Shown piece by piece: positions 3,896 to 26,329 of a stretch of 64,000 nt of DNA. Every line of letters starts with the position of its first letter. The stretch's first letter is position 1. The DNA comes from Thelephora terrestris (taxonomy: Eukaryota > Basidiomycota > Agaricomycetes > Thelephorales > Thelephoraceae). The stretch spans positions 868,001 through 932,000 of the forward strand of contig WIUZ02000006.1 of NCBI GenBank assembly GCA_015956445.1. The letters are read 5' to 3'. The notes below the pieces were generated by a model. The model worked only from the letters and a program-made list of their open reading frames with translations, was not told the origin of the DNA and ran no database searches. The translations under genes were made by a program, and so were the position numbers.

Positions 3896-5760
3896 TTAAC
3901 AGTCCCAACCGTACACAAACTCAGAGGCGGCTGTCTGAGGCGACGGCGGGACATCGAACACTTCCTGGTCTGCGTGCGGTTCCGAGGTGGGTTTAACGCA
4001 GACTCCAGAGGAAAAGTCTTCTCGAAGGAGGAGATCCGCAACATTACGGCCGGACACTATGGAAGATTCGATGGTGGAGATCACGGAGTCGAAGGCGTTG
4101 ACATAGTAGAAACCCTTATCGAGTCTGATGGGAGGGAAGGTTGTCGTTGGGGTAAGAACGGGAGTCTTCCACTGCGCAGAAATGATCATGAGTTCTCGTG
4201 GCTTGAAATAAGAATGGAGGTCACAAACCTCGTGTGTATACACCCATTTCACGGAATCTGGTCCGAAGAGTCGTTCGAGAGATTCTTCGGGCAACTGTTC
4301 CTTAGACAAAATCTTCACGACATACTCCTCTTGTTGACCACGTTGGATGGCACTGTAGTATTTGAGGGAGAGGAACTCCGGTTCTTCTCCGTCATTTGTG
4401 GCGGTGGTGAAGATCGTCCGCGGCGGGGTAGCGGTAGGCTTCAGTCCAAAATACGCAGGGTTAGGATGGGAAGCATTGGTGGTGAGTACCGTGGTAAAGA
4501 TAGACTCGTGCGGTCGCCCCGGGACTTGGATAGTCAATGACTCTGGCAGAGAGATGTGGGAAGTGTGAATCGGAGCAGCCAAAACGACGTTTCTATAGTC
4601 GATGGATCCGTTCGTGCTCTTCACAGTCCATGCGTCGGCGTTCGAGTTCCATTTTATGCTCTTGACCTTGAAGGCAGTCCATCAGAAATCGCCTTTTTAT
4701 CGCCCACCCAGACAGTGCTTACCTGAGACCCGAGGAAGAGAGTAGAATTTGCCTCCCTGGCGAAATTCTCGAATACCTGCCTGTGACCCCCTCGAGTTAT
4801 GATGAAAGTGTCTTGTACATTGGCCAGAGCTGCGCCCAACGCGTTTATCGAGCCCGCGTTTTGGCTGTACGTAGCGCGGATAGCCGCGTTTAGGAGCTCT
4901 GAAACCTGCCTCTCGGATACACCAGAGGAACGGAAAAAATCTGCACCCGATTGGGAAGTGAGGTTTGACCACTCCATGTAATCAATTAGTGAGGAAACTT
5001 CGTCCCAAGGTTGCGTGTCTGGGGCATAGAGCTTCCGTGCTTTGTGCAAGACTTCGTCTAAGCTGAGTTTTGCGGAGTCAGGGGTAAGTTTTGGGGTCAG
5101 ATAAGCACGGCGTACATCGTGTCGCTAGCGCTCAACGACCAGAACCCGTATGTCCAGTACGTCTTTAGTCTATCCCAGATAGGGAACGGGCTGCCTCCCA
5201 ACTATGGGCCCTGAGCAAAACTCACGGGTAAACCGGCGGGAAAGCTTACCGTGAACAGAATTTCACTACCATTCCAAAATCCCACCCCGTCGTTTCGCCG
5301 TTTCCGTGCTATCCGGGTGAGGTTGAACTCCTTCGCTGCCCGTGCCAGGTTTTGGTCGATTTCATAGTGTTTAGACGCGCCCAACTCGACAGGCCTGTAT
5401 CGCTCGTCATCGTATGGGTGGACAAGATCGTTGTCTTTCACAAAATTGAGATCTCGCGCATACGCGAGGGAGAAAAGGGGGCTCACCTCCGCCAATGAAC
5501 TCATTCTTGTCATACATGTGGATGTCGATGTCTACCCCATAACGCTGCTTGGCCTTGGCGATGAAGAAGGCCGTAGAAGTTCCTCCAGCTCCTGCACCGA
5601 TGATCGCCACGGTCTTTGAGGCATTGTACCACGGTTTCCCGGAGTCAATTGTCAACGCGTTGCTCCTACCCCCAAACCATAACCAGGATGGCAGTCGGAA
5701 CGGTAGGCTCAAGGCCTGCGCCGTGCCTGCGGCCACTAGTACATAGGCTGTCCAAAGCAT
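3896..5760 (-). CDS. Prenylcysteine oxidase (prenylcysteine lyase) family
   Basis: This FAD-dependent thioether oxidase should cleave farnesyl- or geranylgeranyl-cysteine left from degraded prenylated proteins, probably in a vacuolar or secretory compartment. The start MLWTAYVLVAAGTAQALS is a hydrophobic leader. It is followed by the FAD Rossmann motif TVAIIGAGAGGTSTAFFI and by PYDDERYRPVELGAS. The second half holds the lyase domain: LIDYMEWSNLTSQSGADFF, GGHRQVFENF, YYSAIQRGQQEEYVVKIL and the C-terminal KGFYYVNAFDSVISTIE. At least four short introns are needed, for example one with donor GTGAGCCCCC after EFIGG. Compared with family members I remember, the segment right after VELGAS looks a few residues shorter, where IFV-type residues usually follow. 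The gene is divergent from the first F-box gene. The function of this family in fungi is inferred from the animal and plant enzymes. Confidence 0.87.
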
Positions 5761-13672: not shown

Positions 13673-15395
13673 CTAGAATCCGACTTGAGATTTACGGGGG
13701 GTGGGACCAGGTCGTGGTCTCCGATCAGTAGGGTCGCTGGAACCGCTGGCGCTCTGTTGAGTAGTAGGTCGGTCTTCAGATCGACCGGTGTATTGCGGGG
13801 GGAGTTCTGTAACACCAGCGCCAGCAGTAAAGACCGTGACAGGTGCGCCTCCGCCATCGTGGTGTACAACGTAGACATGGGGAGTTTGTTGCGTACCACT
13901 GGCACTACCGTCGGATTGGTTGTTCGAATAAGCAGATGTGGGCGCAGGGGGCATAGTTGGACTGGTGGGATGAGGACCTTCGGGCAAGAAGGGTTCAACG
14001 AGGTATTGGTTGGTACTGATGTCAGGACCAGTCGCGGCAGCTGGAACATGGGGAACATTATCGGTCCTCTTGAATCGCTCTTGGTTGGCAATAAATGCGG
14101 CATGATCAATGGAATCACTGCTCGAGTTACGCCTGACTTTGTTGTACCGTTGACGTGCAAAGCAGCTGGCAATGATTATACCGATGATTGCGCCAAGCAC
14201 GAGACCACCGACGCTTGATCCGACGACGACACCGGTAGAGATACCGGACTTCCTGGATGAAAGTATCAGACCGCTGGTTCGGTCAAGCCCGAGGGCGAGA
14301 TTACTTACTTGTTGGGTTGAGAACCAGCGGAAAGACAAGCAGTTGTTGTCCCAGGTCCACCACTATGCTGGGGTCCGTTAGACCAGGAGATACCGTTGGC
14401 ATCGGTTAGAGTGATGAAAAAGGGAGATGCCCAAGAAAGAGAGACGGTCCAGTTGATAGGACTCATGTCATATGACATGATTTTGTACGGAGGGTGAAGG
14501 GCAGGGGCGATAAGCATGGTGAAGGGCGGAGTCCCGTTTTGGGGGATCAGGGAGATGTCCGTACACTGGGATGCAGGTCAGAGGGGAGCAATAAAGTAAA
14601 CGAGGGTCCAGATGGATTACCTGATCAATCCAACCGTACGCAGAAATTGGACCGTTCTCGACGAGACCCTGTACAGAGAGACTTTGGGTGGGCAATGTGA
14701 GGTTTCCGCAACCGGTGGTTTGTGACGGGTACACGGTATAAATATCTTGGCATCCTCCGGTAGCCCCATTTACGTCAAACTGCAATGGAGTATGAACATC
14801 GTGGGACATCCTTCCAAAGGAAAAAAACTCGGGCAACGAACCATACAGATCTCGTACTGCGTTCCGGGCGCGTATGGAACGGTCCAGTTCTGGTGGAGAC
14901 GTGTAAACAAACGGACTAAAACTGGAGCTTGGCCGGGCTCACGTATTCGAGGTTATTTCCTGCATCGATAACAAGTGGCACGGTCTGGGCACTGGAAATA
15001 AATGAGCGGGTGATAGCGAATGTGAGAGGTGGCGATAACATACGAACTGTGAACCAGGAGTTTGTAGGGAGGGACCGGGTTTGGGCTGTTGAGGAGAAAA
15101 TATATGTACGTGGGACACGGACCAAAGATCGCGGGGCAGCGTACCCTGTAGCGGATGATCTACTCCACTGGATGTTTAAGGTGCTGCACTGGGCGGTCGT
15201 TGGGTTTGGCAATGGAATGGTTGGGTCATTCCATTGGAAGAAGAATGACTGGTAGGCGTATCAGTACCGCCCATTGAAATGAGGGAGGTGAAGTTAGTGT
15301 ACCTGAGGGATATAGGGAACGACGTTATTGCCGAACGAGGCACTAACGGCCGCGGTAAACAGGGCAAGGAGGGAGAGGAGGGAAAGCGCCCACAT
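13673..15395 (-). CDS. Single-pass surface protein with secreted ectodomain, function unknown
   Basis: The start MWALSLLSLLALFTAAVSAS is a clear signal peptide. The ectodomain contains paired segments of the type common in basidiomycete surface proteins: QCSTLNIQW, then GGCQDIYTVYPSQTTGCGNL, LVENGPISAYGWIDQ and GTPPFTMLIAPALHPPY, then INWTVSLSWASPFFITL and DANGISWSNGPQHSGG. A transmembrane helix follows (VVVGSSVGGLVLGAIIGIII), with basic residues on the inner side. The cytosolic tail of about 180 residues is rich in Pro, Ser and Thr and ends PTPRKSQVGF. Several short introns are needed and the joins in the region 14900-15200 are the least certain. This architecture is widespread in Agaricomycetes, but I know of no assigned role. 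A wall sensor or mating or surface-recognition role is conceivable and not shown. Confidence 0.72.
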
Positions 15396-16086
15396 TGCAA
15401 CACCAGGGGGAGGAGGAGGATAAGGAACGCACCCGTGAGGGGAAAGGGTGGATGGCCTTTTTATAAAAAATCATGTCAAGGATTCGGTACCCGGCTGTGA
15501 CCCAAGGACCGATCGGGTGAAACACGGGATGGACCGAGACCAAACCGAAAGCGTCAGTCGACTCATGGTTACACCGCCCATCGGTTGCATTGATTGTTCT
15601 ACTTTCAGGCCTTGAAATTCATCTTACAAGACCAAATCTTTTTTTTGCTCTCGGGTGACCAGACCAGCCAAGCTCGCGCGGCAGTCAGGCACGTGTCACT
15701 CCGAAAACACATCCGCTGTCTCGAACTCCGAACTGGAGATTGGGGGGAATCGAGGCACTTGGCGATTGGTCGATAGCTACCATCACAGCCAAGTTCAGCC
15801 TAGTGTGGGAACCGTCTCTCTGAAAAACCAATCCTGCTGTCACTAAAGCGCCTTGAGGCAGTGCCGAGGATCGAGTGCTCATCATCGTAAACTTGTGGGT
15901 GCGATCGTCAATCCTCTCTTGCTACCGCTAAACACAAAGTGGCCACGGCCAGTTTTAAAAAACTAGACACAGCAAGTAACCCGACCTCGCGCAGAATCCC
16001 ATTAATCATCACTCTCCACGTTCACCAGCGCCGAATCGTTTGCTATCTACGGCCCTGACCTGGGATCAACTCATCACTGTACTGTG
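15396..16086. other. Intergenic region upstream of the surface-protein gene
   Basis: These 691 bp lie between the surface-protein start and the 3' end of the exonuclease gene, both on the minus strand. The proximal part contains a TATA-like box (listed separately). The rest has only short open frames without recognisable content. I found no tRNA, repeat or inverted structure that stands out. Confidence 0.4.
15458..15470 (-). promoter_or_regulatory. TATA-like box of the surface-protein gene
   Basis: Read on the minus strand the sequence is TTTTTTATAAAAA. It lies about 65 bp upstream of the start codon at 15395, a normal distance for a TATA-driven fungal promoter with a short leader. Confidence 0.5.
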
Positions 16087-17432
16087 TTATAAGGGTCTCA
16101 ATGTCCGGAGCAGTCCGCGAACGCACTTGTTGACTGTTCCCATCCTTCCTCCTCCTCCCCCATGAGGCTGTCGGGCGAGTCTTGTGATCATGAGTCCCCG
16201 TCCTCCGTTCGTCACCGCTCTATCCCCAGCAACTCGCTGAAGTCCATTCATATGTCCAGAACTTGATCCAGAAACGGCCCCAACCAACCGGTCTGGTCCG
16301 CGATTTGACCTTTCCCTCTGTTGTTGATAGTGGCGGCGCCCACGTGCTGGGGGTTGCCTAGAAACCCCTGAAACATTTGGCTTCCCGTTATCCCCTTCCT
16401 TCTTCTCCTTAGGTGGCTTTGGTGGAGGTGGTGGCCCAGGGTCATAGTTTGGGTTGTTCGGATGCCATGTACGCCCCTGCGAATCGCATAGGGCTCCCCT
16501 ATGCACCTCGAACGAATAACAACTCTCCGCGGGTGGAACAACCATTTCATCAGCCATCTTGATTAACCGAGAATATATGGTATATCCGGAGTGTCCATCG
16601 TTGGCTGCATCTGTTCGCGGAGCACATTCGTCACTCTCGACGGCCGTTCATTCAGCCACCGTACTTACATTCCTGCTGATTATATGAAAGCTGCGCCTCC
16701 CAATTGCTACGCGTTATCTTGCCTTTTCCAAGCGCAAGAAATTCATAGGTGCCGACCAGGTTTGCCAGTCCAATCGGGTTGGTATACTTCCCCTTCCATG
16801 TCGAGTCTACCGAACGAGCCAAGAGAGAAAGATCTATACACTGTTTCATGGAGACGCCACAGTCCCTGTAGACCTTCTTTGCGTCCCCTTGGAACAACAA
16901 GTACACGTCCGTTAGTTCACCTTGGTAGATAAAAGATAAGAAACACTTGCACTTACCCTGTATCCCAACACCAGCCTTCGTATATGTCTCGCTCTCAAGG
17001 ATAGCCCGGAGGCTCTCCGGAAACCCTGAACCACCAAGGGTCAGTCCATGCAAACGGGCATATAGATAACGATGAAAGATTACTCTGCATCGCGCTAACT
17101 TGGAGCAAATATATAACCTCGTTATTGGCCAGCTGGATGAGAGCGACTTTGTTCTCAGGCTGTCCCTTTAGAAACACTGGCTTCCATTCGACATCGAAAC
17201 CGAATACGCAAGGCTGTAGGCCTTCTAAAAGCTCGTCTGCCCTGTCGCAGTCAGTCACATATTCGAAAACCGGTTGTGGCTCGAAAGTCCGCCACGAATA
17301 GGGTATTGTCGGCTCCGGCCGCTTTGGTTGTTGCACTGGTGCAGGTTGTCCGTCTTGTGGAGTAGGCGCGTCCAAAACTGCCGTCACTTCTCCTGTTTCG
17401 GAGGCGGATGTCGAGGTGGACGGCTCTGTCAT
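16087..17432 (-). CDS. WRN-type 3'-5' exonuclease domain protein
   Basis: The protein carries a DEDD-family 3'-5' exonuclease domain like that of Werner helicase or RNase D, without a helicase. Exo I is CVFGFDVEWKP (D and E ligands). Exo II lies in AGVGIQGDAKKVYRDCGV (D). Exo III is QEYAANDGHSGYTIY, with Tyr and Asp as in the DEDDy type. IGLANLVGTYEFL matches the family segment between Exo II and III. The N-terminal 60 residues are low complexity. The C-terminal 150 residues are rich in Pro, Gly and Arg (PPARGRRHYQQQRERSNRG) and may bind nucleic acid. Introns are short and GT-AG. The start at 17432 gives MTEPSTSTSASETGEV. An upstream in-frame ATG cannot be excluded. The gene is divergent from a PIF1 helicase. 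Activity on DNA versus RNA is not decided by sequence. Confidence 0.86.
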
Positions 17433-17614
17433 CTTTGTGGACGTCTGAAAGATGTGGCTGCCGGTATTTGGATTCCATGATTCATTTTCAGTATTCCCAA
17501 TTCACCGGTACCGTGACCTGTTCTTTGAGTTTCCCATCACGTGAGTGGCTGCCACGCCTCATGGTGTCCGCCACCTCCGCTTACGAGACGAAATCTGGCG
17601 CGACATTTCTCGCC
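17433..17614. promoter_or_regulatory. Divergent promoter between the exonuclease and PIF1 copy A
   Basis: 182 bp lie between the two start codons. An E-box-like CACGTG occurs at about 17538-17543 within ATCACGTGAG. This palindrome is the binding site of Cbf1/USF-type bHLH factors. No TATA box is evident. Joint regulation of the two genome-maintenance genes is an inference from this arrangement. Confidence 0.4.
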
Positions 17615-20091
17615 ATGCCTAAATCTCAACAAAAGTATTATGCAGTCAAAGTTGGCAGGGGGGGCCCACAGATCTACAATACGTGGGAAGAGGTACGCTG
17701 GCAGTTCACTGGTCGTGTTTCCGTGCAGGCAGTGACCAGTTCCGTAATATTAGTGTGTTCAGCAGGTGATTATCCTGTTGGGGTTATTCGAAAAATGCCT
17801 GTATGGTGATTCTTCCCGACAGGTAACCAGGTATCCGGGAAATAAGTTCAAGTCCTTTCGCAGTCGAGCGGAAGCACAAGAATGGATAACGCCCAATCCA
17901 AGTAAGCCGATCCTTCCCATCTAGTGCAAACGCTTGACAGTCCTCCCAGTGCCGATTCTACCATCTAATTCTGGCGGCCCCTCTACTTCCAGCGCGTCAG
18001 AATCCTCCGCGCCCAGCGAGCCACCGTCCAGCCAGCCCGAAATGCCACCGGTCACAGGGGAGCCCGGGGTCACGCTATCTCCGGAACAAACCCACGTTCT
18101 GAATATGGTCAAGTCCGGGAGGAACGTGTTCTTCACGGGTTCTGCTGGTAAGTTCCACGAACATGCCGGAAGCATTCGATAATCGATGTCGCAGGAACGG
18201 GCAAGTCCGTACTTTTGAGGCAGATCATCAGTTGGGCCAAAGCCGGTCAATGTGATGAAGATGAGCCAACAGTGGGGGTCACTGCTTCCACCGGTATGGC
18301 TGCCGTGAACATCGGCGGCGTCACGCTCCATTCCTGGGCTGGTATCGGGCTCGGTAATGAGCCCGCAGACCACTACGTGAAAGCAATCAAATACGGACCC
18401 AAGAAGCTCCACAAGCGGTGGCGTCGAGCGAAAACGCTCATCATCGACGAAGGTAGTGTGTGGTTTTTGTGCTCACATGCAGTTGTTGACAAAATGAGCA
18501 GTATCTATGATTGACGCAGGCCTCTTCGATAAACTCGTGCGCGTTCGTCTCATCACCGGTTCGGTCTGCACGCTGACCGCTCATACCAGGAATTCATAGC
18601 TCGTGAGATCAGAGAAAATGAGCGCCCATTTGGTGGGATTCAGGTGAGTCGTCCCATTCCGTGACTGAGCGTGAGTGGCTCACGGACAGGAAGCTCGTAC
18701 TCTCTGGGGACTTTTTCCAACTCCCGCCGGTTGATCTTGGCTCAAAACACGTGCAGTTTGCTTTCCAAGCGCCATCGTGGGACCAATGCATTGATTCCGT
18801 CACATCTTTAACCCGCGTGTTTCGCCAGAAGGAACAATGTGAGCGTTTTACTCCCTCCTCTGGTGGTCAGCAAACGCTTACCTGCCAATCCAGCGTTCGT
18901 GGAGCTTCTCAATGAGATGCGGTTTGGAAAGCTGAGCAAGCAAAATAAGTCTCGTTTGATAGCGCTGTCAAGGGAAGTCAGGTACACAGACTCGGTGGAA
19001 CCGACGCAATTGTACGTCCCGGGAACGTCATATGAGGGCACATTCCTATTTATTGCTTTCGCAGGTTTCCTACGAAGAGGGAAGTTCAATCCTCGAATGA
19101 GAGTCGGCTGGCCAAGCTGACTGGCCCGACGCACACCTTTAATGCCATTGATCGTCCCGGTATTGACGACAAGGGTCGAGATGTCTCTTTCCAGCAAGCT
19201 AAGGTGCAGCTGGACAGATGCGTACTAGCACCCGAAAGTATGACGTTGAAGGTAAGAAACACATCTGCACTTGACATGCCCCCGAAAGGTCTCATATCGC
19301 CAACCTTAGGTTGGTGCACAGGTGATGTTGATCAAGGTACGGAAGGAGACCCCATATGCAGCACACGTTCTTACACTCGAACAGAATGCCGAACAGGGAG
19401 TATTGGTCAATGGCTCGGTGGGAATAGTCACTGATTTTCTCACTTGCCAAGAGGCGAAGGAGATACATCACATCACGGTGGCTATATCCCCGAAGGACAG
19501 AGAAGAAAATCAAAGGACTGGAGAGGTGCGGATAGTGGACCGCCTATGGAAGAACCAGACCAAGTGGCCAGTTGTTGAATTTCCGGGAGGCCGTAAGAGG
19601 CTCATACCTCCGCACGAGTTCACAATCGAAAATGCCAGCGGCTCGACGCAAGCCACCCGATACCAAGTGCCGTTACTATTGGCTTGGGCAATCAGCATCC
19701 ACAAGTCTCAGGGGCAGACCTTGCAGAGGGTTCGTGTCGACCTCGGAAAGATCTTTGAGAAGGGGCAGGGTCAGTCATCTTTGGGCACTTTGGAGGCCGT
19801 TCACGTTAACCAATGGTCTTACAGCATACGTTGCGCTTTCTCGCGCCACGTCATTGCAAACGCTGCAGGTTCTGAACTTCGATCCATCTAGGTAAGCTCG
19901 CTCGAGTGATTGGTTGGTTTCGATTCATGACTCACGTCGCACCTAGGGTCATGGTCCATGAGACAGTTCTAAATTGGCACGAGCAGATTCTTGAGCGGGA
20001 AAGGAAAGCGAGGATTTTGGCGGAATGTGAACAGGCAATTAACTCCTACGTAGATGAAGACTCAGACTGGGAGAACGACCATCCTTTTTAG
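17615..20091 (+). CDS. PIF1-family DNA helicase with N-terminal RNase H1-type hybrid-binding domain, copy A
   Basis: The N-terminus is an RNase H1 hybrid-binding (viroplasmin-like) domain: KYYAVKVGRGGPQIYNTWEE, spliced to VTRYPGNKFKSFRSRAEA. A Ser/Pro-rich linker leads to a complete superfamily 1B helicase: LSPEQTHVLNMVKSGRNV, Walker A GSAGTGKSVL, motif Ia [13 protein letters not shown], Walker [31 protein letters not shown], and motif [15 protein letters not shown] with AYVALSRATSLQTLQVLNF. An intron cuts the Walker A glycine codon (GCT G / GA ACG GGC AAG). The C-terminus ends DWENDHPF. PIF1 helicases unwind G-quadruplexes and RNA-DNA hybrids in nucleus and mitochondria. Starts at 17561 and 17615 are both in frame. 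17615 begins right before the domain, while 17561 would add a short leader. All joins are open, with no sign of decay. Confidence 0.88.
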
Positions 20092-20138
20092 AAGTAACCG
20101 GTTGTTTTTTCGACGAGGCGCTTCACTTGTAAATTTGT

Positions 20139-20144
20139 AATAAA
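20139..20144 (+). terminator. AATAAA polyadenylation-type hexamer after PIF1 copy A
   Basis: The hexamer lies 48 bp after the stop codon of copy A and about 50 bp before the start codon of copy B. If used, the two genes have separate transcripts in spite of the 103-bp gap. Confidence 0.4.
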
Positions 20145-20194
20145 CGAGCGCGTTTGTACACGTGATGCGAATTTCAGGATTCTCAACACAACCT

Positions 20195-22686
20195 ATGCAC
20201 ACGTCCCAACAACTCCTTCCCATCTACTATGCGGTCAAAGACGGCCGCGATGGAAACAAGATTTGCACGTCGTGGAACGATGTACGCGTCACACTGACCA
20301 CCGAGTTTCTCCGCAACTGACATGCAATTGGGATCCAACCACAGTTCCAGGATCAGGTGAGGCACGGGCGTAGATTGCGCACAACTCCTGATCCGAGTCA
20401 GGTTACTGTAACAGGCACGAGATCGCCCCCATGCAACCTTTAAATCCTTCCGTTCCTTAAGCCAGGCTTGTCAATGGCTCGGGTTGTTTGAGCCTGGTAA
20501 GCTCTGCGAACCTGAACACTTCCCCTCAACGATCCCTCCTGATCGCCTCGGGCAGGCTCAAGTACACAACTACCCCTCTCGCAGCCTAACCTCACCTACC
20601 TTCCGTCGCCGACCCCTACTCAGTCATCCAGTGTAATCACCTCGTCACAGATGAGTGCCGTAGAGGAACCATCAGAGCCGCCCCCATTGCAACTCTCTCC
20701 CGAACAGCAACTGGTATTGGATAAAGTCGCCCGCGGAGAGAACGTTTTCTTCACCGGGCCAGCAGGTGAGCTGACTGTGACGAATATTTAGTTTTGGTCT
20801 CACTGAAGAGGGGTATATGTAAGGTACTGGAAAGTCTGTTCTGATCAGGGAAGTCATTCGTTGGGCCGTGCGCGCCCGTCGTATCATCTCCGTGACGGCA
20901 TCGACTGGAATGGCCGCAATAAACATTGGTGGCTCAACGCTACATTCATGGGCTGCGTGCGGTCTCTGTAAGAAGCCTGCGCCCGTTTATGCGAGGGAGA
21001 TATGCAAGGGAGGAGCCGGAGCTGATAACTGGAAAAGGACCCAGATCCTCCTCATTGACGAGAGTCGGTGCCGAACCCTACAACACCTCTTGTGCTTGCT
21101 GACTTCTTACAAGTCTCTATGATCAATGCCATATTCTTCGACAAACTTGCGAGTGTTTGTTTCAATGTGTTGTTCCAGCATATACTCACTCTGTCATTAC
21201 AGGAATTCATTGCCCGAAAGGTTCGAAACAACGAGGGACCCTTCGGAGGGATACAGGTAGCCCTATTGTCGCTGGGATTTTGCTGTCGCTAAAGAGTATC
21301 CACAAAGCTTGTTGTATGCGGCGATTTCTTCCAGTTGCCTCCCGTCCAGGAAAAGAACTCGCCAGTTCTCTTCGCCTTCCAGGCAGCGTCATGGCCCCGG
21401 TGTTTCGGGTTTCCTGTCACGCTTCATCGAGTCTTTCGCCAGGAAAACCAGGGTGAAGGGTCAACATTCGACCCCTTGACACGTTACTTACCTCTTTACA
21501 GAGTTTGTAGCGATGCTTAACACGATGAGAAGGGGGATTGTAACTCCAGAGATAAGCGAAAGAATGAATCAACTATCGAGAGATATTTCCTATGATGATG
21601 GCATCGAACCTACAGAGCTGTAGGTCTACACATCTTTTCGGTGATGGATTGGGCTAAAGGGAGCTGAGGTTTCCGACAAAAGCAGAGGTCGCTACGGCGA
21701 ACCAGCGGCGGATGGATGGACTCCCTGGACCCGCACGGACGTACAAGTCCCATGACACCACTGGCATAAACGACCGAGGAGAGCCGGTGGACATCAAGGT
21801 TGCGATAAAACTACTCAACAAGGAGATAGTCCCGGAGGTTATCAAATTGAAGGTGAGAAATGAAATGACCTCAGCTGTGGGCGGCCATCTACCAATCTCT
21901 CCTACTCTAGGTCGGCTGTCAGGTAATGCTCATAAAGGTAGAGTCCTTCCCCCAGGACCGGCTGGCAAAGTCTAATGAGAGAGGGGTTTAGAATCTCTTG
22001 CCCGGAGAGTTGGTCAACGGATCCATCGGCCAAGTTGTCGACTTTTTGACTGCGGGTGAAGCGGTCAACGGGAATACCGACATAGGTTTTGTAGACCCTA
22101 CCAACGAGATGCGGGACGACGCAGCCGGAGGACCCAATCGAGACATTCCTCTTCATATCTTGCAGAGCCCGCATATATGGCCGGTCGTTCACTGGGCCGT
22201 CGGTCGGAAAATGATGATGGTCCCCGTAGCATTCACCATCGAGAACGTCCACGGGGATGTAGAAGCTGCAAGAGGACAGGTGAGCCATTCCATGACTCTC
22301 CCGATAGAGGATCTGGGTTTGATGTGCTCCCGAGGTACCACTCATCCTGGCATGGGCCATAAGTATCCACAAATCCCAAGGTCAAACGCTTCAACGAGTA
22401 CGAATCAACCTCGCACGGACATTCGAGAAGGGCCAGGCCTACGTTGGGCTCTCTCGGGCGACATCCCTGGACACACTCCAGGTTCTCAATTTCGATCCAG
22501 CGAAGTACACCAATAGCCCAATCGCCCTTCTCGTAGCCTGCCTGACTTCTACACAGAGTTACCGCGCATCCCGAGGTCATAAAATGGCACGAGAGGAACC
22601 TCCAGCAAGAAAAACAACACCGGCAGTTCGAAGACGAGATGGACGCTGAGGAAGCTGTCCGCTCCTACTTCCAGGGTCATAGCTGA
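20195..22686 (+). CDS. PIF1-family DNA helicase with N-terminal hybrid-binding domain, copy B
   Basis: This tandem paralogue of copy A starts 103 bp after its stop. The hybrid-binding domain is more diverged: [19 protein letters not shown], then an exon reading [18 protein letters not shown] and CQWLGLFEP. The helicase motifs are intact: [18 protein letters not shown], Walker [30 protein letters not shown], Walker [69 protein letters not shown] and [19 protein letters not shown]. The Walker A codon is split by an intron exactly as in copy A (GCA G / GT ACT GGA AAG). The intron before LVVCGDFF also matches. Every join I checked stays open to the stop at 22684-22686, so this is not called a pseudogene. 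The C-terminus ends [10 protein letters not shown]. Confidence 0.84.
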
Positions 22687-22957
22687 CGGGTCTCATCCAA
22701 GAACATAACTTTCAGCCATATATCCGACATCTCCACTGCGCATCTTATATTGTAGTTAAATCGTTCGGAAGGGTCCCGGTGTTCAAATGTATCGCTAAAC
22801 AACACACTCAAAGTGTCACAAAAGATCAAGACTGCGGTGGAAATGGACGAAAGAAGCCAAGATGGGAAATACATACACGCGTGAGACGAAGAGAAAAGTT
22901 CCGGTACAAACAGTAGTAAGGAAATCGAACGTACGCGCACGAACAAGGGAGAGGAGT

Positions 22958-25900
22958 CTATTGCAACTGCGATGATAGAGTGTCACCTTGCGCCTCGTGT
23001 CCGGCTTGTGTAGCCTCCTCTGGCTGACGGAGGGTGTTAGAAGGGGGCGGTTGGCTTTGTTCCTGAGACCGTACAGCCTGACTAGGCACCTGAGACACTT
23101 GTTGCGTGAGAGGCTGGGGGGAAACCAGTTGTAGAGTCGATCCTACCAGTTCATCATGTGCGATAGGTCGCGCTTGGCTCGTCGACTGACCATCGGCCCC
23201 TGGTGAGCTCGAGGGCGTTTCAAAGGGGGTGTTGGGCGATTCAGACTTCCCAACTGTTGTTCTTTCAACAGCTGGCAAGGGAGGTGGAGACTGTGCCTTT
23301 CCCTGGGGTTTATCCTGAGTCAAAATGTGGACCAATGCTGGTTGCTGCTGTTGTTGTACGAACGTAGACAGAGAAAGAGCAGAAGGAGTGGGAAGAGGGG
23401 ATGGCGGATCGCTCAACGGCGGGGATGCGGGAGCGGGCCCGGTCCAGTCCCCTTCAGAGATCTCTGGCTGAGAAAAGTCAAGCCCCTTCGTCCCTCTTAA
23501 GCTCTGTACGGTCACACTTTGCCTACCGGGGCGAAGGGGTAACGGCGGCGGGGCGATATATGAGGTTGGGCTCGAAACATTTGTCTCCGCATTTGTCTCT
23601 GCCTCGGATGAAATGGGGGACGTGTTAGGGTGCCCGCTCGAACTACCGGCATTCCCTCGTGATGACGGATGGATACTGGCAGGTGGCTGAGGTGGGACCT
23701 GTGGCGTGAAATCGTCGCCTGTTGTCTGTGGGGTTGGGGTCTGCGGAAGGGGTGCGTTGAACTGTTGAGGGGCGCGTTCCGAGAACTTGGTATGGGTCGA
23801 GCCATACGCATATGGAGGCGCGGTCTCTCCGAGAGGAGCTGGGGGAAGTGGGGGGGATGACGCGTAAGATGCGGTATGGATTTGTTCATCAAATATTGTA
23901 TGGCAATGAATGATTAGGGCTTCCATAAATGTATCCTATACCGGCAAGCTCAAGATGAAGCGTCCGGTGAAACTTGGACGGGATCGACGTACGTTGTGGC
24001 CCTGGAGGCTCAAGAGATCACCACCCTTGGGATCGTCATCGATCCCGAAGATGCCGAATACGATTGCGAGATTTCTAGTATCCATCTTGTTCCTCTCGCG
24101 ATTTGATGCAACGCGATTGAGGTGTGACAGAACAGCCTTCAGGGTGTACCTATGGATAGGTGGGAGACGCCGAATCTTCGCGCGAACAAGTTGAAAATCT
24201 GAAGCGAAGTGTTTTTCTGCACGGAAATTTAGTCAGAAATAGGCCCTGGTGGACGCAGAAAACTCCAACCGAAGTCGATGGTGTGCTGTATTCTGTCTTC
24301 CAAGGGGAATTTGAGCAGTGGTTCAGGAAGCTCCCGTAGATACATCTAACTCCACGTAAACAAATTGATATTGAACGCACGCATTTCCAACGAACCTTGA
24401 GTAATGCAGCGACGACGTAAATATCATCGGTAGGGTAGAAACTGAACGCCTTCTCATTCTTCTCAATCCTGTGTCTGAGCTGCAAAGGTTCAGTCCAACA
24501 TCCTTGTTGTTTAACTTCGCCGAACTCACTTCGTTGACGGAGGAAACTCTGCCGGATACCTAATGTCCTGGTAAAAGCGGGCACGGAGGAGAGAACTCTG
24601 TTGGAACTTACCCGATAGATACCTTCAGCATCAAGACCCCTTTTGTCAACCTCCTCGATGCAAATCCTCACGATCTTTGGTATCTCTCCCTCTGGAAGGT
24701 CTCTCGCCGTGGCGTAATCTTGGAGACTGAAACCAAAGATCAAGTCCCTGCACTCCCCCACATAGAAGTTGTGGTAGGGGATGGGTGAAGGGATCGAAGA
24801 CGCAAGAGATTGCGCGATGTATGCATTTACCCCTTTCATGTCGCGTAATGTGGATACCTTCTCAACCTGCTGAGCTCCGTGATTAGCGAGTTGCAGGCTT
24901 GTCGAGAACATGGCACTGTTAAGCATTTAGTCAGACGTGGAAGCCACAGGCCCTACTAGTGGTTTCTTGAACTCACGCCAAATTATCCGCGTATTTGCCC
25001 AACGCCTGCTTGATTGTCTCCGAGGATTCTCCAATAAAGGTTTCTAAGCTCTTGCCGGACGTTAGATCAACTGCACGCGGGCGATTCATCGGTGGGCACC
25101 TACATGATACCCTGCTTGGATTGTCTTCTCTCGGTTCAACCTGAGAGTTTCACACCAATGGACCGCATTTCGATACTGAACATCTGGAAAGAAAATGAGA
25201 CGGGCGCATTAGAGGAGAAAGGCTGTTCTCACCCGCTTCATCTGCCTCTCGCTTCGCCCTCACAGATCGAAGTGGATCCCTGTCTGAGCCGCCCCTAAGG
25301 GCCTCTTTCGCGCTTCCTTTGTCCAAAAACGTAATGAGTTGGTTCAATTGCTTCTTGCCTAAAGAGTTTGTTAGGAATCAACAGGGAATGAATAAGGGAA
25401 GCCCGACCTTGGGAGGCGATATCCGAGAATGCCGTAGGTGGGGATCTCGGGCGGGTTGAGGTGGTACTTGTAGAGGCACGACGCTCAAGAGGTCTCAGGG
25501 GTTGTGGTGAAGTAACGATCGGTCGTGTCGTGGGGTCGCGGACCTGGGAATCGGCGTAGCGGAGGTCAGATTTTGCATGAGACGCCGCCGAGAGAGCGAC
25601 TGATTTGTGATCCTGCAAGGCGGATGGTCATCATTGCATGAGAGCTAATAAATGCGAGGTTCTTACCTCTACGTCTTGACATTTTTTGATGTAGGCACGT
25701 TTGAGCTTTGGCAGCACGTTTTCGGTGTAATCGTTGTGTGTTTGAATTGAGAGTTTCATCTGACCCCGGATCCTCTTACGAATCCGCTCTTGAGTTTCCT
25801 AGATAGCATCGCTCGGGAATTCCGGGTAGGGCCATACGTAAGGAATAAAAAGACCGACCTTGAAGGAAACGAGAGGATTGATGACCTCGTGAGTTATGGA

Positions 25901-26329
25901 ATCCATGAATGCCCGACGAGTTTGTGCTTCTCTCTCGAGGTTATCTCTAACTTCCGACCAAGCGGATCTCAATGATGTGGACTCAAGGCGAGAGTCAAAA
26001 AATTGATCCACGTTGAGGGTCTTACGGTGGAGTTCCATGAGTGATTCATAACTATTGGGGGTGATCAGCGGGGAGCAAAGAGGGAGGGCGGAGATCAGAT
26101 AAACGGACTAGTCTTCTTCAACCTTCCTCCTATAGGAAGATAAGAGAGGTCAGGAAAGAGTGAAATGGGAAGAGCAGCGGGCGAACCTCTCTTGTAAAAA
26201 AGTGAGATAAGAATCTGAGAGGATTCTGAGATAGAGATCGAACAGAGCGAGTGGGCCCTGGTCTGAGGGGGTGGACATGGAGGGCCGCGCACTCGGGGTG
26301 CTGTCGGCGTGACCTTGGTTAGAGGACAT
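22958..26329 (-). CDS. F-BAR and RhoGAP domain protein (Rgd1/Rgd2-like)
   Basis: The protein joins a membrane-bending F-BAR module to a Rho GTPase-activating domain and probably acts at the cell cortex and septum. The start [17 protein letters not shown] is followed by the FCH segment FLQERRKVEEDYYESLMEL, which needs two short introns, then [20 protein letters not shown] and a coiled-coil region. The RhoGAP domain begins [17 protein letters not shown], with the arginine-finger loop EGIYRVSGR, then [20 protein letters not shown]. Its end is [16 protein letters not shown] tail of over 300 residues is Pro/Ser/Gln-rich with a short Gln run (VQQQQQP) and many potential SH3-binding prolines. The exon reading [14 protein letters not shown] is bounded by an acceptor at GACATTAG. 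The assignment to Rgd1 or Rgd2 type is not certain. Confidence 0.87.

Follow-up and report, generated by a model that had tools for sequence, protein, structure and literature searches.

What is a domain of the RNase H1 type doing at the front of two tandem PIF1-family helicases? The question is raised by a stretch of the genome of the basidiomycete Thelephora terrestris (GenBank assembly GCA_015956445.1, contig WIUZ02000006.1, positions 868,001 to 932,000 of the forward strand), which is 64,000 nucleotides long, is called the window below and supplies the numbering of all positions. Two adjacent genes, copies A and B, each encode an RNA-DNA hybrid-binding domain (HBD, PF01693) followed by a PIF1 helicase, and the same fusion, HBD-PIF1, is found in some bacteria of gut type. 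Sequence comparison points to a tether: the HBD most likely holds the helicase to RNA-DNA hybrids.

Copy A runs on the forward strand from an ATG at 17615 to a stop at 20091, and copy B from an ATG at 20195 to a stop ending at 22686, so that the span 17615..22686 proposed for the pair by a first-pass annotation, made from the letters of the window alone, is exact at both ends. Splicing of the window DNA gives each gene 14 exons and one intact frame (597 and 595 amino acids, respectively), with 26 of 26 introns of the GT-AG type and 47-63 nucleotides long. In copy A, the start codon and the first half of the HBD (YYAVKVGR...TWEE) are on exon 1 (17615..17692), a 12-nucleotide micro-exon within the domain (17754..17765, encoding CVQQ) is in the same place as its counterpart in B, the second half of the HBD (VTRYPGNKFKSF...) is on exon 3 (17823..17901), and the linker and PIF1 helicase, with Walker A GSAGTGKS and on to the stop, occupy exons 4-14 (17950..20091). 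The corresponding parts of copy B, on the same strand, are exon 1 (20195..20281, start codon and YYAVKDGR...SWND), the 12-nucleotide micro-exon (20345..20356, FQDQ), exon 3 (20415..20496, second half of the HBD) and exons 4-14 (20556..22686, linker and helicase). The protein alignment of A and B spans 610 columns, of which 289 (47%) are identities and 46 contain gaps, and intron column and phase are common to both in 11 of 13 cases; intron 3 falls within the poorly alignable linker, with phase 1 in A and B, and intron 12 is a true difference. Differences between A and B at third codon positions (0.70 in the HBD, 0.69 in the helicase) exceed those at first and second positions (0.43/0.41 and 0.38/0.30, respectively), and this excess in both parts indicates that both were kept coding after the duplication. 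HBD and helicase have thus outlasted an old duplication in A and B alike, and open frames and kept motifs rule out pseudogenes.

The profile search that had been named beforehand as able to refute an RNase H1-type HBD at the N-terminus of both helicases finds the domain in each: PF01693 (gathering cut-off 21 bits) matches copy A at 63.3 bits (E 2.5e-17; residues 7-51, profile 1-44 of 44) and copy B at 35.1 bits (E 1.6e-8; residues 11-54, profile 2-44 of 44). An independent HBD hidden Markov model, built from 68 distinct rows with A, B and every HBD-PIF1 left out, scores them at 67.4 and 34.4 bits, against 11.9 and 7.9 bits for the best of 2000 shuffles of each. Both copies also match the RNase H1 structures 1qhk, 3bsu and 6vrd in a phmmer comparison with the PDB (A at E 7.2e-7 to 4.2e-5). 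In both copies an intact PIF1 helicase continues the frame of the HBD. The nuclease is absent from the fusion, as had been claimed: the Pfam matches listed at E up to 1 (25 of 26 for A, 21 of 21 for B) include no RNase H domain.

Two introns flanking the 12-nucleotide exon interrupt the HBD mid-domain in A and B. Among 1114 in-frame splicings of copy A, the micro-exon form ranks first (67.4 bits; the next has 60.4, the form without the micro-exon 48.8, and a form retaining the second intron, in which the frame is also open, 58.2), and that of copy B is second of 205 (34.4 bits; 26.4 without the micro-exon), behind a splicing with splice sites moved six bases (34.9 bits). The diverged middle ascribed to B by the first-pass annotation is therefore partly a splicing effect of this micro-exon, although B is truly the more diverged copy.

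PF05970 (PIF1, cut-off 25.9 bits) matches A at 147.1 bits and B at 132.9 bits, PF21530 (Pif1 2B, cut-off 23.9 bits) matches them at 32.2 and 30.4 bits, and Walker A, Walker B, YVxLSR and the other helicase motifs looked for are present in both, the motif-IV pattern being so loose that it carries no information. Helicase core, motifs and 2B domain are as in the PIF1/Rrm3/Pfh1 proteins (yeast ScPif1, 5o6b; Candida albicans Pif1, 7otj; human PIF1, 6hph; and the fungus' own C58, C6a and C6b), but A and B carry the HBD and linker where the usual fungal Pif1 has its N-terminal region. Copy A has 4 of 8 intron positions in common with C58 and 3 of 9 with C6a, both modelled with a simple purpose-made aligner, and these common positions mark its helicase as a fungal Pif1 paralogue. 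No further HBD-PIF1 was found among 9 other PIF1 regions of the T. terrestris genome (40.6 Mb, 60 contigs), which are a part of its PIF1 matches and in which an intron-split HBD could be missed. That genome has 45 PIF1 matches in all, several of them exons of one gene, some of them identical-scoring pairs on different contigs (C1/C23, C38/C56), and 10 of them in open frames of more than 2000 amino acids that are probably Helitrons. Two closely related extra Pif1 genes on C6 (L055 and L056) have an N-terminal KKISSYF/KKITSYF stretch that we take to resemble a PCNA-binding box.

The combination is not confined to the fungus. A scan of bacterial and archaeal genomes with an alignment of A and B gave 29 loci, one of which (L158, from a metagenome-assembled genome of Erysipelotrichaceae) spans both domains, its 525-amino-acid frame matching PF01693 at 78.2 bits and PF05970 at 92.1 bits. 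In the Erysipelotrichaceae-type family of L158, 8 of 43 genomes match at E <= 1e-20, and 7 of the 43 (L158, L188-L193) have HBD and PIF1 in one uninterrupted frame, in the same order as A and B; one of the seven is a named cultured strain, Thomasclavelia saccharogumia DSM 17460 (L169). In the eighth matching genome (G039; L194/L231:1835-3429, minus strand) HBD and helicase are in separate frames, and the gene is broken or the assembly erroneous. Unlike A and B, the bacterial genes encode a helicase of the bacterial Pif1 branch, have no introns, and place 42-58 residues between the end of the HBD and Walker A, versus 77-82 in the fungal copies. Their neighbour genes differ between subgroups, which suggests that the bacterial HBD-PIF1 is a stand-alone gene. 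A sample drawn evenly by class has 4 of 395 genomes matching at E <= 1e-30, all four already among the family matches. PF01693 is present in 62 of 392 genomes of a phylum sample; among the frames longer than 400 amino acids, four genomes have HBD-PIF1, and of six other long frames the four read (L201, L215, L220 and L222) are HBD-RNase H with a large C-terminal part.

A search for a wider spread of the fusion found no case in the sampled viral, phage and plasmid matches or in the phylum of the genome that carries L170. The HBD occurs in the Pif1 frame of 0 of 80 viral Pif1 loci kept (of 101), and in that phylum 4 of 398 sampled genomes match Pif1 at E <= 1e-20, in no case together with an HBD. 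The best 15 of 470 phage records matched by copy A all start at query residue 97 or beyond; the L158 protein matches 233 plasmid records, the best 15 of which start at residue 66 or beyond, one plasmid record with 60-80% identity to this protein lying outside the 15 examined. An NCBIfam search gave no match above any family's own cut-off, a PHROGs comparison of the L158 protein and a scan for bacterial-type promoters were uninformative, and an annotated phage record with a Pif1-like gene led nowhere. In one viral locus (L115:4001-5865, IMGVR_UViG_3300033143_006101) the Pif1 match ends at 5239, before an HBD-RNase H frame (first Met at 5254), so HBD, RNase H and Pif1 are in neighbouring genes, unfused. 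Small viral proteins (109-amino-acid frames, L144:2818-3144 and L149:2818-3144) have an HBD at the end and no enzyme domain seen, and in several small bacterial genomes (L217-L219, L222 and L223) HBD-RNase H frames are fully open only if TGA encodes Trp.

The helicase tree (28 rows, 475 of 818 columns, no Helitron row; the 80 viral Pif1 loci are represented by 12 picked by hand, as was one Pif1 from Verrucomicrobiota) separates the fungal and bacterial fusions. A and B form a clade (support 99/97) that groups with ScPif1, C58, C6a and C6b at 100/100, and the seven bacterial HBD-PIF1 genes form another (96/98), on the side of the bacterial Pif1 proteins 8bns and 5fhd (100/99); placements are less sure near two long-branched viral rows and five rows of odd letter make-up. 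Forcing A, B and the seven bacterial genes together, a group fixed before the tree was seen, is 107 log units worse (approximately unbiased test, AU p 1.76e-36), and a single ancestral fusion common to fungi and bacteria is rejected. Thus, the HBD-PIF1 fusion arose at least twice, independently in fungi and bacteria.

Structure models cover the bacterial protein. In that of L158 (35-row alignment; predicted local distance difference test, pLDDT, 88.7; predicted template modelling score, pTM, 0.78) residues 4-46 fold as the HBD, in the order strand-strand-helix-strand-helix, and are followed by a linker (residues 50-64, pLDDT <50) and by the helicase; the 38 best PDB matches of the model are Pif1 structures. 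The L158 HBD modelled alone (18 rows, pLDDT 87.8) fits 3bsu, a structure of the human HBD in complex with an RNA/DNA duplex, with a root-mean-square deviation of 0.6 Å.

In RNase H1 (human 3bsu and 6vrd, yeast 1qhk, and the fungus' own L001 on C23, with an HBD profile score of 70.6 bits) the HBD is likewise N-terminal and the main contacts are alike, but A and B have a PIF1 helicase in place of the RNase H nuclease, one extra residue in the first loop of the HBD, and Ser for K60. The HBD of the fungus' own RNase H1 is interrupted by a single intron, about two codons upstream of the micro-exon place as read by hand, in contrast to the two introns of A and B; since the intron positions differ, the HBD of A and B does not appear to have been copied from it recently. 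The HBD is also found in bacterial and phage HBD-RNase H proteins, a number of which have a large C-terminal part; there Ser is common at K60, and the domain is joined to a nuclease rather than a helicase.

Five contact positions were compared (Y29, W43, F58, K59 and K60, in human RNase H1 numbering), Y29 and F58 being taken by us as hybrid-contact residues of the human enzyme. According to passages of two studies, W43A and KK59/60AA compromise hybrid binding by the human HBD (PMC10639055), and a W43/K59/K60 triple mutant construct has been used elsewhere (PMC8677849). In the comparison with human RNase H1 suggested by the first-pass annotation, A and B keep four of the five positions, Tyr (Y29), Trp (W43), Phe (F58) and Lys (K59), and have Ser at K60, a difference on which the annotation is silent. 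Residues were also counted at 81 loci, 80 of them with an HBD row: 65 joined to RNase H (by motif), 9 joined to PIF1 (7 distinct genes) and 6 other, some loci possibly representing the same genome reached twice. Where the HBD is joined to RNase H, in 65 bacterial and phage loci, the K60 position holds Ser 51 times, Lys 11 times and Gly 3 times, counts to be read with the viral loci fetched partly by a pattern allowing only K or S there and the phylum set fetched by the Pfam profile; Trp stands at W43 in all 65 and Lys at K59 in 64, and the F58 position has Tyr in 57 loci and Phe in the other 8. Because Ser stands at K60 in 51 of these 65 loci, it is weak evidence against hybrid binding. Among the bacterial HBD-PIF1 genes, 3 of 7 have Lys at this position; L158 is one with Lys, L190 one with Ser.

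In the proposed mechanism, A and B would each be a PIF1-family helicase with its usual N-terminal region replaced by an RNase H1-type HBD on a linker. The HBD would grip an RNA-DNA hybrid (an R-loop, an RNA primer or a telomeric hybrid) and hold the helicase there, and the helicase, with the 5'-3' polarity of PIF1-family DNA helicases, would move along the DNA strand and strip the RNA off rather than cut it. The HBD, on its flexible linker, would raise the local concentration of the motor and keep it on the hybrid. Hybrid binding, recruitment, unwinding substrate and biological role of A and B are all things that we infer, and telomeres are one possible site among several, with nothing here to single them out. 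Parts of one study report that yeast Pif1 prefers to unwind RNA-DNA hybrids, that this preference is lost without the N-terminal domain, and that only 15-20 bp of hybrid are unwound per binding event (PMC8998199); because of this short reach, a tether would be expected to help. The same parts relate a proposal that at R-loops Pif1 acts on G-quadruplexes of the displaced strand, not on the hybrid itself (PMC8998199). According to passages of another study, yeast Pif1 and Rrm3 bind DNA:RNA with an affinity above that for duplex DNA, and cells without RNase H1 show both accumulating at tRNA genes (PMC7073672).

A tethering role is supported by both domains scoring above curated cut-offs, by the helicase motifs and most contacts being kept in A and B, by both parts having stayed coding after the duplication, by the separate bacterial fusion, and by the fit of the L158 HBD model to 3bsu and its low-pLDDT linker. 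Several points weigh against it: Ser replaces K60, a member of the lysine pair altered in KK59/60AA, a double mutant with compromised binding according to part of the study cited for the human mutants (PMC10639055); the HBD of B is much more diverged than that of A (35 versus 63 bits) and matches 1qhk, 3bsu and 6vrd weakly (E 0.0019 to 0.5); the domain of A and B could bind double-stranded RNA or a protein instead; and conservation in fungi rests on two paralogues. A bolder claim, that HBD-PIF1 proteins form a convergent class of dedicated RNA-DNA hybrid helicases, built from fungal and from bacterial Pif1 and unwinding rather than cutting so that the RNA survives, which would give a second, RNA-sparing route beside RNase H1 for clearing R-loops and primers, is put forward tentatively.

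The low scores of B, together with its longer branch in the helicase tree (0.69 versus 0.35 for A), would fit a division in which A is a hybrid-guided helicase, whereas in B hybrid binding is lost or altered as the protein moves towards a different role. This is compatible with tethering and may be so, but is doubtful, because Y29, W43, F58 and K59 are all kept in B, its 14-exon frame is open, and none of the helicase motifs looked for is missing from it. It is unlikely that the HBD-like domain is a general adaptor for RNA or protein (double-stranded RNA, or a nuclear or mitochondrial partner) with no selection for RNA-DNA hybrids. The related domain of caulimovirus viroplasmin has an adaptor-type role, PF01693 also covers viral translation factors, and the replacement of K60 by Ser in both copies and the divergence of B would agree with such a function; however, the other four contacts are kept, Ser is the majority residue at K60 in HBDs that are still joined to RNase H, and separate joining to a hybrid-preferring PIF1 in two lineages fits hybrid binding better.

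Met codons 3' of the HBD (MPPV in A, MSAVEE in B) would allow a shorter start, and the N-terminal exons could then form a separate small transcript, the fusion being an artefact of the gene models; this is very improbable and is rejected, since the exon 3/exon 4 junction has compatible phase 1 in both paralogues and the bacterial homologues are single uninterrupted frames. Least credible of all is that A and B are remnants of a Helitron-type transposon with a captured HBD, for although the fungal genome has its long, probably Helitron frames and, according to part of one report, the Pleurotus Helitron helpo1.3 carries a separate captured PF01693 gene, capE (PMC4289320), A and B are intron-rich, match yeast Pif1 (5o6b; E 2.1e-109 and 5e-99) far above the Helraiser transposase (E 3.6e-15 and 2.6e-17), group with yeast and the fungus' own cellular Pif1 in the tree and, in the case of A, share introns with the latter, lack the Helitron-like N domain PF14214 among the Pfam matches listed, and have no repeats of at least 22 bases around them (14000-26000, ungapped search), so that Pfam, PDB matches, tree and repeat search largely exclude this origin. 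The likeness of helpo1.3, as far as that part of the report describes it, is a PF01693 gene on a copy from a Helitron family with a PIF1-type helicase; it differs in being a separate captured transposon gene, with no fusion and no cellular Pif1 (PMC4289320).

The gene next to copy A, outside the fusion, encodes a 3'-5' exonuclease in 4 exons with an intact frame (16087..17432, minus strand; PF01612, 64.6 bits). It is transcribed divergently from copy A, 182 bp separating one start codon from the other, and a shared promoter region may allow co-expression of exonuclease and helicase. The window also contains a frame at 24150-24926 (minus strand) that presumably resembles part of a RhoGAP domain protein.

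The fusion is undescribed in the open-licence literature searched, a scope that excludes subscription papers and automatic domain databases (the latter may already list this architecture), and the passages of a 2023 review of R-loop helicases (PMC10641170) that concern three terms name PIF1 and contain no HBD-bearing helicase. What is new here is the N-terminal module of a PIF1 helicase, a combination that was arrived at on two or more separate occasions. According to parts of the yeast study cited above, it is unsettled whether Pif1 helicases act directly on R-loops or only on structures of the displaced strand (PMC8998199); a Pif1 with a defined, mutable HBD lets direct action on R-loops be probed by single point mutations, and production of the bacterial fusion should be straightforward, since its gene is free of introns and a named cultured strain carries it. 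The presence of HBD-PIF1 in a fungus and in bacteria suggests a helicase aimed at RNA-DNA hybrids, and its having been invented twice, separately, argues for the usefulness of tethering Pif1 to hybrids.

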